Positions 55,204 through 61,119 of a stretch of DNA of 64,000 nucleotides are shown piece after piece; the first letter of the stretch is position 1, and each line of letters begins with the position of its first letter. The DNA lies in contig LUYM01000016.1 of assembly GCA_001603275.1 (NCBI GenBank), forward strand, positions 62,001-126,000, given 5' to 3'. Both the position numbers and the translations under genes were made by a program. The notes under the pieces were generated by a model that saw only the letters and a program-made list of their open reading frames with translations, searched no databases and was not told the DNA's origin. This stretch comes from Actinomycetales bacterium Actino_02. Its GTDB lineage: Bacteria > Actinomycetota > Actinomycetes > Propionibacteriales > Propionibacteriaceae.

Positions 55204-55596
55204 ATGGCAAAGCTCACCACTGACGAGCTCCTTGAGGCATTCAAGGAGATGACCCTGATCGAGCTCTCCGAGTTCGTGAAGCTGTTCGAGGACACCTTCG
55301 GTGTCACCGCTGCCGCTCCGGTGGCCGTGGCCGCCGCTGCCGCCCCGGCCGCTGCCGGCGAGGCCGCTGCTGAGGAAGAGGTCAGCAACGAGGTCGACGT
55401 GATCCTCGACTCCGCTGGCGACAAGAAGATCCAGGTCATCAAGGAGGTGCGCGCTCTCACCAACCTGGGCCTGAAGGAGGCCAAGGATCTGGTCGAGGCC
55501 GCTCCGAAGCCGGTCCTGGAGAAGGTTGCCCGCGACGTGGCCGCCAAGGCCAAGGAGGCCCTCGAGGCCGCCGGCGCCGCTGTCACCATCAAGTGA
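55204..55596 (+). CDS. rplL: 50S ribosomal protein L7/L12
   Basis: 130 residues: N-terminal dimerisation helices ([21 protein letters not shown]), an Ala-rich hinge at about residues 36-55, and the C-terminal domain with [20 protein letters not shown] that recruits elongation factors. Starts 17 bp after rplJ with AAGGAAG upstream. Confidence 0.97.
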
Positions 55597-55660: not shown

Positions 55661-55698
55661 GCATGTCCGGGGGTTCGTCGAGGTGCGAGCGGAAAAGC

Positions 55699-55733
55699 AG
55701 AAGGGCGACAACTCAATGAGTTGTCGCCCTTCT
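55699..55733 (-). terminator. Terminator of the small secreted-peptide gene
   Basis: A perfect inverted repeat with 17-bp arms (55699-55715 and 55717-55733) around one central base. On the minus strand it is followed by GCTTTTCC, an intrinsic-terminator-like T-run; on the plus strand no T-run follows. It lies 57 bp beyond the stop of the peptide gene at 55790, and could also stop plus-strand read-through from rplL. Confidence 0.75.
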
Positions 55734-55789
55734 GACTCTACCGGGGGTGGGTTTTATCAGTAGGTCAAGTATGTGATGTGGAGGGGGCC

Positions 55790-55948
55790 TCAGCCCTTCT
55801 GCGGCCAGTTGCCCTGACCGGCGGTGGAAACGGTGGTGCCGCCACCAATGCGGCCACCGGCGTTGTCGCTCGATACGACACTGAGCGGCAGAACCGCGAG
55901 TGCCCCAGCGACTGCCACTGCTGCGACGATCTTACGAACGATACCCAT
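55790..55948 (-). CDS. Small secreted peptide precursor (52 aa), candidate signalling peptide
   Basis: A 52-residue frame from ATG 55948 to TGA 55790, with AAGGGG 6 nt upstream of the start. The N-terminus is MGIVRKIVAAVAVAGALAVL: two basic residues then a hydrophobic core of about 17, a textbook Sec signal peptide, with possible cleavage near VVSSDNA. The remainder is about 25 residues, Gly/Thr/Ser-rich, ending GQGNWPQKG. It has its own promoter (exact TTGACA -35) and terminator. It is divergent from the HTH-TPR regulator 104 bp away, with a dyad between. I do not recognise the family. By architecture it resembles the exported pro-peptides of RRNPP systems. A secreted antimicrobial or structural peptide is the alternative. 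Confidence 0.72.
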   Translation of the reverse strand: MGIVRKIVAAVAVAGALAVLPLSVVSSDNAGGRIGGGTTVSTAGQGNWPQKG

Positions 55949-55983
55949 CCTGGGCCCCTTCCCTGAGGATTGCTTAAAGGAAC

Positions 55984-56011
55984 AGTACAGACTAGTTGAC
56001 TAGCTTGTCAA
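55984..56011 (-). promoter_or_regulatory. Promoter of the peptide gene
   Basis: Read on the minus strand: TTGACA (complement of 56006-56011), 16-bp spacer, TGTACT (complement of 55984-55989), leaving a leader of about 30 nt before the ATG. The -35 box lies inside the left half of the dyad at 56004-56022, so a bound regulator should block or contact RNA polymerase. Confidence 0.6.
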
Positions 56012-56022
56012 GATTTGACAAG
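55991..56022. promoter_or_regulatory. Operator-like dyads between peptide gene and regulator
   Basis: CTTGTCAA (56004-56011) and TTGACAAG (56015-56022) are exact reverse complements separated by GAT. Immediately left lies a second dyad, CTAGT-TG-ACTAG (55992-56003). The whole stretch is AT-rich relative to its surroundings. XRE-family repressors bind dyads of this size; assignment to the adjacent HTH protein is inference. Confidence 0.65.
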
Positions 56023-56052
56023 GTTCCTGTCGAGTTGGAGATCGGAGGTCGA

Positions 56053-57300
56053 ATGGACGCGTCCAACGCTGTGCAATTCGGCGTCCTGCTCCGGCAAGCA
56101 CGAAAGCGCAAGGGGTGGTCCCAGGCGGAGCTGGCCGGCGACAAGTACACCGGCAGCTACATCTCCCACTTGGAGAGCGGGCGCCGGGCGGCGACCCCCG
56201 AAGTCATCGAGTTCCTCTGTCGCCAGTTGGGGGTGCCGCCCGAGGAGTGGGGGCTGACCGCCGGCGGGCAGGTGCCGCAGCCGCCGAGCAGCGCCATGGA
56301 GGATCTGCTGCTCGCTGAGCGCGCCTGGTCCGAGCGGGACTGGGTCGGAGCGATCAAGTACGCCACCCGCGCCATTGAGATCGCCGAGCGCACCCATGAC
56401 CAGGGGCGGCACTGGGAGGCGCTGTATGTCCTTGCCCAGGCCAACTTCGCATCCGGCAATTTCGCCGAGGCCGCTGAGTTGGCCGAGCAGTTGGCCGAGC
56501 ATGAGACCGGCAGCCGGCTGCCGGTCGCGCGAGCTCAGGCGCTGAGCTTGGCCTCGTTCGCACACCGCTCTGCCGACCGGTTGGGCTGGGCGGTCGCATT
56601 CGCGGCCCGCGCCGTTGAGGCGGCCAACGCTGCGCCTCCGGTCGTCCTCTCCGATGCGCTCATGGCGCTGGTCAGCGCCATGACTGAGGCAGGTCATTCA
56701 CTCACGGAGAGCCGTCCGTACCTAGATCGGCTGGAGGCTGTCGAGCCGGAGTTGTCCTCCGATCACGCCAAGGGCATGGTCGAGTGGACCCTCGGTGCCG
56801 TAGCCATTGCCTCAGGTGAGCCGGAGGCGGGGGTGCCGCACTTCGAGAAGGCACTCTCCCTCGTCGACTCGCGACGCGATGTGCGGCTGTGGCTGCGCCT
56901 GCAGCGGACGTTCGCCGAGGCGAAGGTGGACGCCGGGATCCTCGACGGAGTGCCGGAGATGCTGCAGAGCGCGTCTGTGGGACTGAGTCTGGTCGGTAAC
57001 AAGCACGACCTCGCGGAGCTGCGGCAGGCGGAGGCGAAGCTGGCGCTGGCCACCGGCGACCCGCAGCGGGCGGCCGAGTTGATGGAGTCTGTCCTGGCAG
57101 ACCCGGCTCTTGGTGCGCCTGATGTCTCGCATGGCTCGACCCGCCTGGTTCTGGCTCACGCCTACGCAGCGTTGGATCGAGTTGGACAAGCCAGGGAGCA
57201 GTTTGCGCAGGCTGCCATCGCTCTGGAGAACGAGGGCCGCCTGCGGACCGCGCTCCGGGCCTGGCGTCAGGCATCCGAGCTGAAGGAAGTTCTTGACTAG
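56053..57300 (+). CDS. XRE-family transcriptional regulator with TPR-like sensor region (RRNPP-like)
   Basis: 415 residues from ATG 56053, GGAGG 4 nt upstream. Residues 8-65 form a helix-turn-helix of the XRE type: FGVLLRQARKRKGWSQAELAG, YTGSYISHLESGRRAATPEVIEFLCRQLG. From about residue 80 to the end the protein is all-helical with TPR-like pairs, for example AERAWSERDWVGAIKYATRAIEIAE, YVLAQANFASGNFAEAAELAEQL, TLGAVAIASGEPEAGVPHFEKAL and LAHAYAALDRVGQAREQFAQAAIALE. XRE plus TPR is the architecture of peptide-sensing RRNPP regulators (PlcR, Rgg/ComR, PrgX), though some TPR-XRE proteins sense other things. The divergent small secreted peptide makes peptide sensing plausible. The gene ends inside a second copy of the operator-like half-sites. 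Confidence 0.82.
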   Translation: MDASNAVQFGVLLRQARKRKGWSQAELAGDKYTGSYISHLESGRRAATPEVIEFLCRQLGVPPEEWGLTAGGQVPQPPSSAMEDLLLAERAWSERDWVGAIKYATRAIEIAERTHDQGRHWEALYVLAQANFASGNFAEAAELAEQLAEHETGSRLPVARAQALSLASFAHRSADRLGWAVAFAARAVEAANAAPPVVLSDALMALVSAMTEAGHSLTESRPYLDRLEAVEPELSSDHAKGMVEWTLGAVAIASGEPEAGVPHFEKALSLVDSRRDVRLWLRLQRTFAEAKVDAGILDGVPEMLQSASVGLSLVGNKHDLAELRQAEAKLALATGDPQRAAELMESVLADPALGAPDVSHGSTRLVLAHAYAALDRVGQAREQFAQAAIALENEGRLRTALRAWRQASELKEVLD

Positions 57301-57321
57301 CTGTTGACAAACCCTGTCAAG
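57292..57321. promoter_or_regulatory. Second operator-like site at the 3' end of the regulator gene
   Basis: CTTGAC (57292-57297) and GTCAAG (57316-57321) form outer arms; TTGACA (57304-57309) and TGTCAA (57315-57320) form inner arms. The 10-mer TTGACTAGCT (57294-57303... spanning the TAG stop) is identical to 55996-56005 in the upstream site. TTGACA could also be a -35 box for transcription toward rpoB, but the best -10 (CAGACT) is weak. Confidence 0.55.
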
Positions 57322-57372
57322 TCTTGCCAGACTTACTCCTGTCGACGCGCCCCCTAAGCGTCGGACGAGAGA

Positions 57373-57449
57373 ACACCACAGGCCGGTGCCTTGTTTCATA
57401 CCGCGGCTACCCCTCCCGCGAGTTGGCAAGAGCGCCGGCCTTGTGGTGT
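57373..57449 (+). terminator. Long hairpin between regulator and rpoB
   Basis: ACACCACAGGCCGG (57373-57386) pairs with CCGGCC-TTGTGGTGT (57435-57449) with one bulge; the loop is about 48 nt. No T-run follows. It may end the regulator transcript or fold in the rpoB leader. Confidence 0.45.
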
Positions 57450-57645
57450 CCGGGGGAGTACGCTGATCAGCGAGTTGAGCAGGGCTAGCGCGACGCCATC
57501 GGTGGCGCGGCAGCCCGGTTGCCATTGACTACCGTTTTCGGTAAGCTATCGCTTTGCTCATTGCCATCAACGACCCGTGCACTTGACTCGGGCCGTTCTG
57601 CGTGCAACGAAACCGGTTGTCCCGGCTTTGTGGAAGGACCTCACC
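57450..57645 (+). promoter_or_regulatory. rpoB upstream region with candidate promoter
   Basis: Between the hairpin and rpoB I see one promoter-like pair, TTGACT (57525-57530) and TATCGC (57547-57552) with a 16-bp spacer. No short reading frame with a ribosome site is apparent on either strand in the whole 345-bp gap. GGAAGGA (57632-57638) is the rpoB ribosome site. Confidence 0.45.
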
Positions 57646-60600
57646 TTGGCCGCCTCGCGCACTGCGTCGAAGAACACCAATGTTGTCTCAGCCAGCGGCA
57701 GGATCTCATTTGCGAAGATCCACGAACCGTTGGAGGTGCCCAATCTGCTGGATCTCCAGGTCGAGTCTTTCGACTGGCTGATCGGCAACGAAACCTGGGC
57801 CAACCGAGTGGCCGCCGCCAAGGCAGCAGGCCGCACGGACGTCAACACCAAGTCCGGCTTGGAGGAGATCTTCGAGGAGATCTCTCCGATCGAGGACTTG
57901 TCCCAGACGATGTCGTTGTCGTTCCGCGACAACCGCTTCGACGAGCCGAAGCACACCGTCGAGGAGTGCAAGGACCAGGACTTCACCTACGCCGCCCCGC
58001 TGTTCGTGACCGCAGAGTTCATGAACAACGACACCGGCGAGATCAAGAGCCAGACGGTCTTCATGGGCGACTTCCCGCTGATGACCGACAAGGGCACCTT
58101 CATCATCAACGGCACCGAGCGGGTGGTTGTCTCCCAGCTCGTCCGTTCGCCGGGCGTCTACTTCGAGCAGACCCCGGACAAGACGTCCGATAAGGACATC
58201 TTCACCTGCAAGATCATCCCGAGCCGCGGCGCCTGGCTGGAGTTCGAGATCGACAAGCGGGACATGGTCGGCGTCCGTGTTGATCGCAAGCGCAAGCAGA
58301 ACGTCACCGTGCTGCTGAAGGCGCTGGGCTGGACCAACGAGCAGATCCTTGCCGAGTTCGGCGAGTTCGAGTCGATGCGGCTGACCCTGGAGAAGGATCA
58401 CACGCAGAACACCGACGAGGCGCTGCTGGACATCTACCGCAAGCTGCGTCCGGGTGAACCGCCGACGCGTGAGGCTGCCCAGCAGATGCTGGAGAACTAC
58501 TACTTCAACCCGAAGCGGTACGACCTGGCCAAGGTGGGTCGCTACAAGATCAACAAGAAGCTGGGCACCGGACTGCCGTTCGACACCCAGGTGCTGACCA
58601 TCGACGACATCGTCGCCGCGATCCGCTACATCGTGTCCCTGCACGAGGGTCGCACCGAGATGGGCGATATGCCGGTCGAGACCGATGACATCGATCACTT
58701 CGGCAACCGTCGCCTGCGCACCGTGGGTGAGCTGATTCAGAACCAGCTGCGGATCGGCCTCGGCCGGCTCGAGCGCACCGTCCGTGACCGGATGACCACT
58801 CAGGACATCGAGGCAATCACGCCGCAGACCCTGATCAACATCCGTCCGGTCTCGGCTGCGCTGAAGGAGTTCTTCGGAACCTCCCAGCTCTCCCAGTTCA
58901 TGGACCAGACCAACCCGGTGGCTGGCCTGACCCACAAGCGGCGCCTGTCCGCGCTCGGTCCGGGCGGTCTGTCCCGCGATCGCGCCGGCATGGAGGTCCG
59001 CGACGTCCACCCGTCCCACTACGGCCGGATGTGCCCGATCGAGACTCCGGAAGGTCCGAACATCGGCCTGATCGGCTCGTTGGCATCCTTCGCCCGGGTG
59101 AACGCGTTCGGCTTCATTGAGACGCCGTACCGCAAGGTCGTCGATGGGATCGTCACCGATCAGATCGACTACCTCACCGCTGACGAAGAGGATCGCTACA
59201 TCATCGCCCAGGCCAACGCCAAGGTGGCCGGCGACGGCAGCTTCATGGAGGATCGGGTCCTGGTCCGCGAGCGCCACGGTGAGGCGGACGAGGTTGTGCC
59301 CAGCGAGGTGCAGTACATGGACGTCTCGCCGCGCCAGATGGTGTCGGTCGCGACGGCCCTGATCCCGTTCCTCGAGCATGACGACGCATCGCGAGCCCTG
59401 ATGGGCGCCAACATGCAGCGTCAGGCAGTGCCGCTGATCCGTAACGAGGCGCCGTTCGTCGGCACCGGTATGGAGTACCGCGGTGCAGTCGACGCCGGCG
59501 ACGTCACCGTTGCGGCCAAGCCCGGTGTGGTCACCGGTGTCACCGCGGACGTGATCGACATCACCAACGACGACGGCACCTACTCCAGCTACCGGCTGGC
59601 CAAGTTCCGTCGTTCGAACCAGGCGACCTGCATCAACCAGCGTCCGCTGGTCAGTGTCGGCGCCCGGGTCGAGTCCGGTAGCCCGCTGGCCGATGGTGCC
59701 TGCACCGACGGTGGCGAGATGGCGCTGGGCCGCAACCTGCTGGTGGCGTTCATGCCCTGGGAAGGCCACAACTACGAGGACGCGATCATCCTGAGCCAGC
59801 GCTTGGTCCAGGACGACGTGCTGACCAGCATCCACATCGAGGAGCACGAGATCGATGCCCGCGACACCAAGCTTGGTGCCGAGGAGATCACTCGGGACAT
59901 CCCCAACATCGGTGAGGACATGCTGGCCAACCTCGACGAGCGCGGCATCATCCGCATCGGCGCCGAGGTCGGCACCGGCGACATCCTGGTTGGCAAGGTC
60001 ACCCCGAAGGGCGAGACCGAGCTGACCCCGGAGGAGCGGCTGCTGCGGGCGATCTTCGGTGAGAAGGCCCGCGAAGTCCGCGACACCTCGATGAAGGTGC
60101 CGCACGGCGAGACCGGAACCGTGATCGGGGTGCGCGTCTTCGATCGTGAGAACGACGACGAGCTCCCGCCGGGGGTCAACCAGATGGTCCGCGTCTACGT
60201 GGCCCAGAAGCGGAAGATCTCCAACGGCGACAAGCTGGCCGGACGCCACGGCAACAAGGGCGTCATCTCGAAGATCCTGCCGGTCGAGGACATGCCGTTC
60301 CTGGAGGACGGGACCCCGGTCGACATCGTGCTGAACCCGCTGGGTGTGCCGTCCCGAATGAACGTCGGGCAGGTGCTGGAGACCCACCTTGGTTGGGTTG
60401 CCAAGACCGGTTGGGACATCGCGGGCGTCGACGAGCCCTGGGCCGAGCGGCTGCGCTCGGTGGGCCTGGAGAAGGTGCCTGGCGAGTCTCGCCTGGCCAC
60501 CCCGGTGTTCGACGGTGCCAACGAGGAAGAGATCGCCGGACTGCTGGAGCATGGTCTGCCGCAGCGTGACGGGATGAAGCTGGTCAACTCCGACGGCAAG

Positions 60601-61119
60601 GCCCGACTGTTCGACGGACGTTCCGGCGAGCAGTACCCGGAGCCGGTCGGTGTCGGCTACATCTACATGCTGAAGCTGCACCACCTGGTCGACGACAAGA
60701 TCCACGCCCGTTCCACTGGCCCCTACTCGATGATCACTCAGCAGCCGCTGGGTGGTAAGGCGCAGTTCGGTGGCCAGCGTTTCGGTGAGATGGAGGTGTG
60801 GGCCCTGGAGGCCTATGGCGCCGCCTGGGCTCTGCAGGAACTGCTCACCATCAAGTCCGACGACGTCCCCGGCCGCGTGAAGGTCTATGAGGCGATCGTC
60901 AAGGGCGAGAACATCCCTGAACCGGGTATCCCCGAGTCGTTCAAGGTGCTGGTGAAGGAGATGAAGTCGCTGTGCCTGAATGTCGAGGTGCTGTCCAGCG
61001 ACGGAACAGTGGTGGAGCTTCGCGACTCGGAGGATGACTACCGAGCCAGCGAAGAGTTCGGGATTGATCTTTCCCGGCGCCCCGGTGCTGACTCCTTCCG
61101 CTCCGTCGACGAAGTCTGA
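57646..61119 (+). CDS. rpoB: DNA-directed RNA polymerase subunit beta
   Basis: 1157 residues from TTG 57646. GGAAGGA lies 7 nt upstream, and the protein then begins [19 protein letters not shown] followed by [16 protein letters not shown], the usual actinobacterial N-terminus; a GTG 69 bp upstream is less likely. The rifampicin region is at residues 411-435 ([32 protein letters not shown]). Also visible: [56 protein letters not shown] and the C-terminal [25 protein letters not shown] (in parts [19 protein letters not shown]). It lies upstream of rpoC with a 77-bp gap. Confidence 0.97.

Follow-up and report, generated by a model that had tools for sequence, protein, structure and literature searches.

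A divergent regulator-peptide pair between rplL and rpoB in Propionibacteriaceae is a candidate RRNPP-like signalling cassette with relatives across actinobacteria

Our study concerns two divergent genes between rplL and rpoB in 64,000 nucleotides of Actinomycetales bacterium Actino_02 (Propionibacteriaceae; contig LUYM01000016.1, positions 62,001 to 126,000), a stretch that we call the window. One is a frame of 52 amino acids on the minus strand, the other a regulator of 415 amino acids on the plus strand, and their start codons lie 104 bp apart. We think it probable (about 0.82) that they form a self-regulated peptide-signalling cassette working like the RRNPP systems of Firmicutes, in which an adjacent exported pro-peptide carries its conserved residues at the C-terminal end. 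A first reading of the sequence (the original prediction) had proposed such a pair. Comparison among genomes supports that proposal through a pairing, a tail and palindromes that are conserved, and the finding is broader: precursors with several motif copies and two receptor-matched tail codes occur beyond the family. The two genes and their immediate signals are as follows.

55790-55948, minus strand: candidate pheromone precursor of 52 amino acids (pro-peptide, export predicted), from the open reading frame (ORF) listing, conservation, substitutions and co-occurrence
55802-55819, minus strand: encodes the tail motif GQGNWP (residues 44-49), conserved in the nine-row alignment A2
55955-55964, minus strand: ribosome site AGGGAAGGGG of the peptide gene, 6 nt before its ATG
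56053-57300, plus strand: XRE-TPR regulator of 415 amino acids, candidate peptide receptor, from the ORF, Pfam and a structure model
56044-56048, plus strand: GGAGG, ribosome site of the regulator, preceding its ATG

The same 16 of 30 genomes of the genus contain both the regulator (at E 1e-20 or below) and, next to it, the peptide (at E 0.01 or below). The peptide profile, made of nine rows from the peptides of nine of these genomes and searched blind to position, found the frame once per genome in 16 of the 30, always beside the regulator. Random placing would give identical presence with a probability of 7e-9, if kinship among genomes is ignored. The pair is carried by 11 of the 15 genus genomes that are at least 90% complete, and several of the 14 pair-free genomes are incomplete. 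Among 198 genomes of the family, 34 have the regulator at E 1e-20 or better, and by reading 32 of these regulators adjoin a secretory small ORF whose tail carries WP or GxGxW. The small frame is thus conserved beside the regulator in relatives, as the original prediction required. Our motif rules accept WP, GxGxW or a terminal CC in a secretory small ORF within 1.2 kb of the regulator. Alone, they pass 33 of the 34 family loci, with an unrelated ORF as the hit in locus L008; an adjacent secretory small ORF is found in 33 loci (32 by rule, plus L008), and that of L023 is split. These three rules took over from a first one that missed DIEWP-like tails, and both versions were set after the peptides were known. 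Locus L001, whose contig is apparently that of L012 (both have 7756 bases), enters no count. Tails in the family include GGQGNWPLK, GFGDWPVS, GEGWWPQS, AGQGDWPFK, GGGEGHWTP, SEGMWP and GGGDHGIWP.

The 52-residue frame has a basic N-terminus followed by a hydrophobic core and looks secretory by eye and by a simple script rule, which also served for the signal-like starts in the family; this agrees with the signal peptide of the original prediction. Its best conserved block in the nine-row alignment is the tail and not the hydrophobic part: G44, Q45, G46, W48 and P49 are invariant across the nine chosen rows (GQGxWP), so that the C-terminal residues are conserved on alignment as anticipated. L008 deviates, with a tail GQGSYPLK in which Y replaces W. 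Compared with the nearest relative, L004, the peptide ORF shows 14 synonymous and 2 nonsynonymous differences, a ratio of nonsynonymous to synonymous rates (dN/dS) of 0.04, and nine further pairs within the genus range from 0 to 0.83. The comparison thus points to selection on the peptide ORF in the closest pair, and the tests of co-occurrence, substitution and conservation together indicate that the ORF is more than a chance frame. Neutral change or decay by frameshift had been named as signs against the proposal; the closest pair differs mostly at synonymous positions, and one frame is split.

Homologues of the regulator extend well beyond the family. Profile A1 (E 1e-40 or better at the order level, 1e-25 at the class and phylum levels) matched 38 of 391 genomes of the order, eight of them outside the family, 60 of 394 of the class and 14 of 396 of the phylum. 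A motif ORF adjoins five of the eight homologues at the order level, by rule and reading alike, and at the class level 44 of 62 by rule or 43 by reading, the hit in L141 being probably due to chance. The 62 come from 68 class matches outside the own genome, leaving aside a partial match in G716, four further genomes of genus g76 and, in G756, a second end copy. Shuffled flanks gave any motif in 9 of 624 cases, WP in 8 and a CC end in none. This CC end (WCC, YCC, MCC, PCC and others) is a second tail code, and seven loci combine it with WP, for example in PNWPTMCC. The CC peptide of L128 appeared on a wider rescan only and was left uncounted. Some regulators have several CC-ended peptide genes nearby: L080 has three and L079 two, and in L130 one lies on either side. 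Outside the class, where the counts have no shuffle control, a divergent secretory ORF stands beside all eight homologues, with WP in six. Seven of these ORFs have 28-33 codons, a signal-like stretch plus a few tail residues (GYPWPK twice, GFPWPK, FPWGGT, FPGP, AGWPRH and ANWPHH), and the eighth has 61, with GGGNWPFFDD.

Several precursors repeat the tail motif: AGGGIWPK five times in L036, and GEGIWY (L030), GNWPDPM (L087), VGGSWPT (L116) and DISWP (L098) three times each. A plasmid protein of Kitasatospora sp. NBC_01266 (WP_329572843.1) holds six copies of IGWPAA. The copies within a precursor vary at synonymous codon positions, and shuffling of residues matched the repeated 4-mer count in 0 or 1 of 2000 trials for precursors with three to six copies; the two-copy precursors of L088 and L097 are weak cases (78 and 111 of 2000). 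Repetition of just the tail motif suggests that this motif is the functional unit. The regulator matched 32 plasmid records, and three other regulators used as queries matched 25, 26 and 40; phage records gave no match. Tail peptides were found at 6 of the 13 plasmid loci examined, in some cases by visual selection among annotated genes that the rule does not cover, and at none of the other seven. One of the six is the Kitasatospora locus; of the others, Streptomyces parvus WP_158709179.1 has DVEWP twice, Streptomyces sp. NBC_00239 WP_328973789.1 has NVEWP and DVEWP, S. finlayi WP_185303133.1 ends in ELDWP and lacks a clear signal sequence, Streptomyces sp. Mg1 WP_008741297.1 ends in PLCC, and an unannotated ORF of Nonomuraea gerenzanensis ends in DAGCC. 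In three Streptomyces plasmids (L181, L184, L186), an annotated acyl carrier protein gene separates the WP-tailed small gene from the XRE-TPR gene.

The tail code follows the phylogeny of the receptors. The tree has 100 regulators, four of the 104 having been dropped because they are shorter than 370 amino acids. A branch with support 100/99 divides CC from WP receptors: one side has 31 CC, 7 with both codes, 8 with none and 1 WP (L141, probably chance), the other 41 WP and 12 with none. We assigned the labels of L023, L123 and L128 by hand, and L008 and L141 owe their WP labels to chance ORFs. On the tree, 18 label changes are needed, against 48.1 in shuffles, and none of 200 shuffles went as low. 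Judged by these sequences, receptor clade matches tail code, and shared descent accounts for part of the match.

The regulator has the architecture expected of a peptide receptor. Pfam assigns residues 8-66 to HTH_31/HTH_3, a helix-turn-helix (HTH) domain, and the remainder to several TPR families, and in a set of 19 rows HTH families occur in all 19, TPR_2 in 10 and TPR_16 in 9. An AlphaFold2 model from the 19-row alignment is a helical repeat of paired helices (mean predicted local distance difference test score, pLDDT, 92.1; predicted template modelling score, pTM, 0.77), all-helical except for two single-residue bridges. Pfam and model thus agree with the N-terminal HTH and all-helical TPR-like remainder first described. 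In the TPR half, the polar or aromatic positions that are invariant in 33 family regulators (L022, half of a gene split in the assembly, is left out here and in the count of operator 2 below) are W121, R172, W245, W280, R282 and D319. All six lie on helices assigned as A (130 residues) and none on B (128 residues); the A helices of TPR repeats line the groove. Among the best 50 of 1379 Foldseek hits are generic TPR matches that include Rap-CSF (4gyo), pLS20 Rap-Phr* (6t46) and RapH-Spo0F (3q15), the Rap chains at E 8e-5 to 3e-4. ComR was matched among solved structures through its HTH only (E 0.001 and 0.002).

Conserved palindromes suggest how the pair could regulate itself. The small frame has its own -35 besides its ribosome site, as the original prediction had read from the sequence: TTGACA-N18-TACTGT lies upstream, and the layout is common to relatives (consensus TTGACA-N18-tAnntT). 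The candidate elements are these.

55982-55987, minus strand: putative -10 TACTGT of the peptide promoter, placed by the consensus
55996-56011, palindrome: candidate operator 1, TTGACTAGCTTGTCAA; its minus strand has TTGACA, the -35 of the peptide gene, at 56011-56006
56004-56022: overlapping palindrome CTTGTCAA-GAT-TTGACAAG
57304-57320: candidate operator 2, TTGACAAACCCTGTCAA, directly after the regulator stop and facing rpoB

Exact TTGAC-N6-GTCAA occurs upstream of the regulator in 30 of 34 family loci against 0 of 680 shuffles, the motif having been defined from the loci in which it was counted. TGTCAA-n-ATTTGACA is present in 14 of 16 rows of the same genus, and most loci of family f23 have a different palindrome, CTGTCATGACAG or the shorter TGTCATGACA. 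Besides operator 1, the genome has a single exact TTGAC-N6-GTCAA; it falls within ispG, and we disregarded it. At the regulator stop codon, 21 of 33 loci have another site of the type TTGAC...GTCAA, with a spacing of 5-8 and no more than one mismatch; shuffles give such a site in 25 of 1650 cases, and coding stretches in 6 of 1700. The N7 form of operator 2 with final G occurs once in the own genome. Some loci have a -10-like hexamer 17 bp beyond operator 2 (CATACT in L026 and L028) that points towards rpoB. The hexamer of the window is poor, with a possible weak -10 near 57328-57333. A terminator scan found none between regulator and rpoB. Operator 2 may link the circuit to rpoBC transcription. 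The idea that rpoB expression requires the cassette was dropped: six cassette-free members of the genus keep a similar rpoB leader by eye, and their best TTGAC/GTCAA matches in the 800 bp before rpoB have 1-3 mismatches. Since the leader is kept without the cassette, any effect of operator 2 would come on top of the usual rpoB promoter.

From these sequences we infer the following course. The general secretory pathway would export the precursor, and proteolysis would leave a short C-terminal peptide containing GQGNWP. An oligopeptide transporter would take the peptide back up; the own genome encodes six SBP_bac_5 proteins. Inside the cell, the peptide would bind the concave side of the TPR superhelix and alter the hold of the regulator on the palindromic operators. 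With operator 1 overlapping the peptide promoter, the circuit would feed back on its own signal; operator 2 lies on an element that resembles a promoter directed at rpoBC. Our guess, given that the palindrome spans the -35, is that the regulator is a repressor relieved by the peptide. The effect on rpoBC, and the output in general, is the least certain part. A bolder extension, which we consider tentative and rather doubtful as a whole, is a peptide language of the entire actinobacterial phylum, with XRE-TPR receptors, WP and CC codes and some multi-copy precursors, in which the signal of Propionibacteriaceae tunes rpoBC through operator 2.

Other explanations must be weighed against this signalling circuit. 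The small gene might encode a secreted effector, bacteriocin-like or other, that the XRE-TPR protein controls without binding it as a ligand. A palindrome overlapping the peptide promoter is expected for any regulated neighbour, but in 29 of 34 family loci the pair sits between rplL and rpoB, where genes for export, immunity or modification would hardly fit. The tail code is also predicted by receptor clade, the 28-33 residue forms have few residues past the signal-like stretch and are short for an effector, and multi-copy units with variable spacers better suit released signals. We consider an effector improbable. A slightly smaller chance goes to a toxin-antitoxin-like or membrane-stress pair, with the hydrophobic small protein in the membrane and the regulator as its repressor. 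This would account for a short hydrophobic ORF that diverges from an XRE gene and has palindromes across its promoter, but not for a tail that is better conserved than the hydrophobic part and is repeated in several precursors. Finally, TPR domains bind many ligands and 18 of 62 class regulators lack a motif ORF by rule, as one would expect if the regulator sensed another ligand and the peptide gene were an unrelated passenger. The identical presence across 30 genus genomes and the receptor-matched codes make this the least probable of the three.

The signalling cassette, our preferred reading, must itself accommodate several observations that weigh against it. Its strong support comes from comparison, and the motif rules and the palindrome were defined post hoc in related genomes, so that the counts are not independent. 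By rule, 18 of the 62 class loci and 3 of the 8 order loci have no motif ORF within 1.2 kb, L089-L091, near the WP branch, being of this kind. The WP rule also matches by chance, as in the 8 of 624 shuffles, and the first rule matched 2 of 52 window tiles besides the genuine one. The dN/dS of the peptide ORF reaches 0.51-0.83 in 4 of 10 same-genus pairs, each value resting on 5-9 synonymous differences. In L023, peptide start and tail are in different frames, which may reflect an error or decay; that genome is a draft with undetermined bases. A promoter scanner reported no promoter in the region, because it requires four of six positions in the -10 and TACTGT has three. Foldseek places LGN and MalT above Rap among its best 50 of 1379 hits, which makes the fold match generic. 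Likewise, Pfam and NCBIfam gave generic HTH and TPR families only and no family among those that we took to be RRNPP-specific, in a 19-row table that lists 25 of 33 families.

The features around the pair are as follows.

55204-55596, plus strand: rplL, neighbour convergent with the peptide gene, from the ORF listing and synteny
55698-55734, between rplL and the peptide gene: perfect hairpin with 18-bp arms, terminator-like, short T-run on the minus strand
57577-61119, plus strand: rpoB, downstream neighbour, true start perhaps 57646

Besides the 29 family loci with both flanks, L027 and L031 lie on short contigs where a single flank is visible, and L032, L033 and L034 have neither rplL nor rpoB beside the pair, which is thus probably located elsewhere there. 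In the cassette-free genomes L172, L174, L175 and L176 of the same genus, no rplL turned up in the 0.85-1.5 kb before rpoB; L173 and L177 differ. The hairpin has a folding energy of -39.7 kcal/mol (z -8.6 on the minus strand). The CTTTTCC that follows on the peptide strand has only four T and the terminator scanner found no minus-strand site at the hairpin, so that the dedicated terminator of the original prediction is plausible at most; the hairpin may serve rplL instead. An inverted repeat at 57380-57441 (AGGCCGGTGC / GCGCCGGCCT), with a similar one in L001, is possibly part of a structured rpoB leader. An Rfam scan gave no match over the cassette. The one close named record is the Propionibacteriaceae metagenome-assembled genome SJ317, 92% identical over the rpoB stretch.

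Peptide-receptor signalling of an RRNPP-like kind seems undescribed in actinobacteria. Cytosolic signalling through peptide receptors is described for Firmicutes. According to one survey, actinobacterial signals are typically small enzyme-made molecules (PMC10075063), a review mentions in passing 'cyclic or modified peptides' and butyrolactones (PMC4748050), and another source gives butyrolactones for Streptomyces and RRNPP for Firmicutes (PMC13220807). A term search of PMC9765709 and PMC12700828 returned none of the actinobacterial terms sought. Within the open-access literature, a scope that excludes preprints and most subscription papers, we found no description of such a pair in actinobacteria. 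If true, a widespread family of linear-peptide receptors would offer many testable signal-receptor pairs, including some on Streptomyces plasmids, and would bear on peptide import in streptomycete development. Which peptide signals streptomycetes import then is an old question. Synthesis of the short WP and CC tails costs little, which makes the question of signalling directly testable.

The pair can be set beside several known systems. BldK of Streptomyces coelicolor is an oligopeptide permease that imports a small extracellular signal, which to our knowledge has not been identified; it is a similar case of an actinobacterial permease tied to such a signal, with no link shown to our regulator family. 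NsdA-family regulators (NF053720) also have an HTH followed by TPR-like repeats, and the window protein scores below their cut-off (26.2 bits against 75, over residues 15-80 only). In Rgg-SHP of streptococci, a receptor gene lies beside a short hydrophobic peptide gene, often divergently. The pair shares this arrangement but has a WP tail, and family and structure searches gave no Rgg sequence match. With RRNPP/RRNPPA systems at large (PlcR-PapR, NprR-NprX, Rgg-SHP, ComR-ComS, PrgX-cCF10, Rap-Phr, AimR), it shares the XRE HTH with TPR-like repeats and a neighbouring pro-peptide, here of predicted export, with a conserved tail, and the 28-33 residue forms recall SHPs. The original proposal of an RRNPP-type pair therefore stands for receptor architecture and adjacent pro-peptide and lacks an RRNPP-specific family match in our tables, so that the pair most likely works like an RRNPP system, which is better supported than membership by descent. 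It differs from these systems in its Actinomycetota host, in its own palindromes, one of them before rpoB, in its WP or CC tails and in precursors with up to six copies of the motif.
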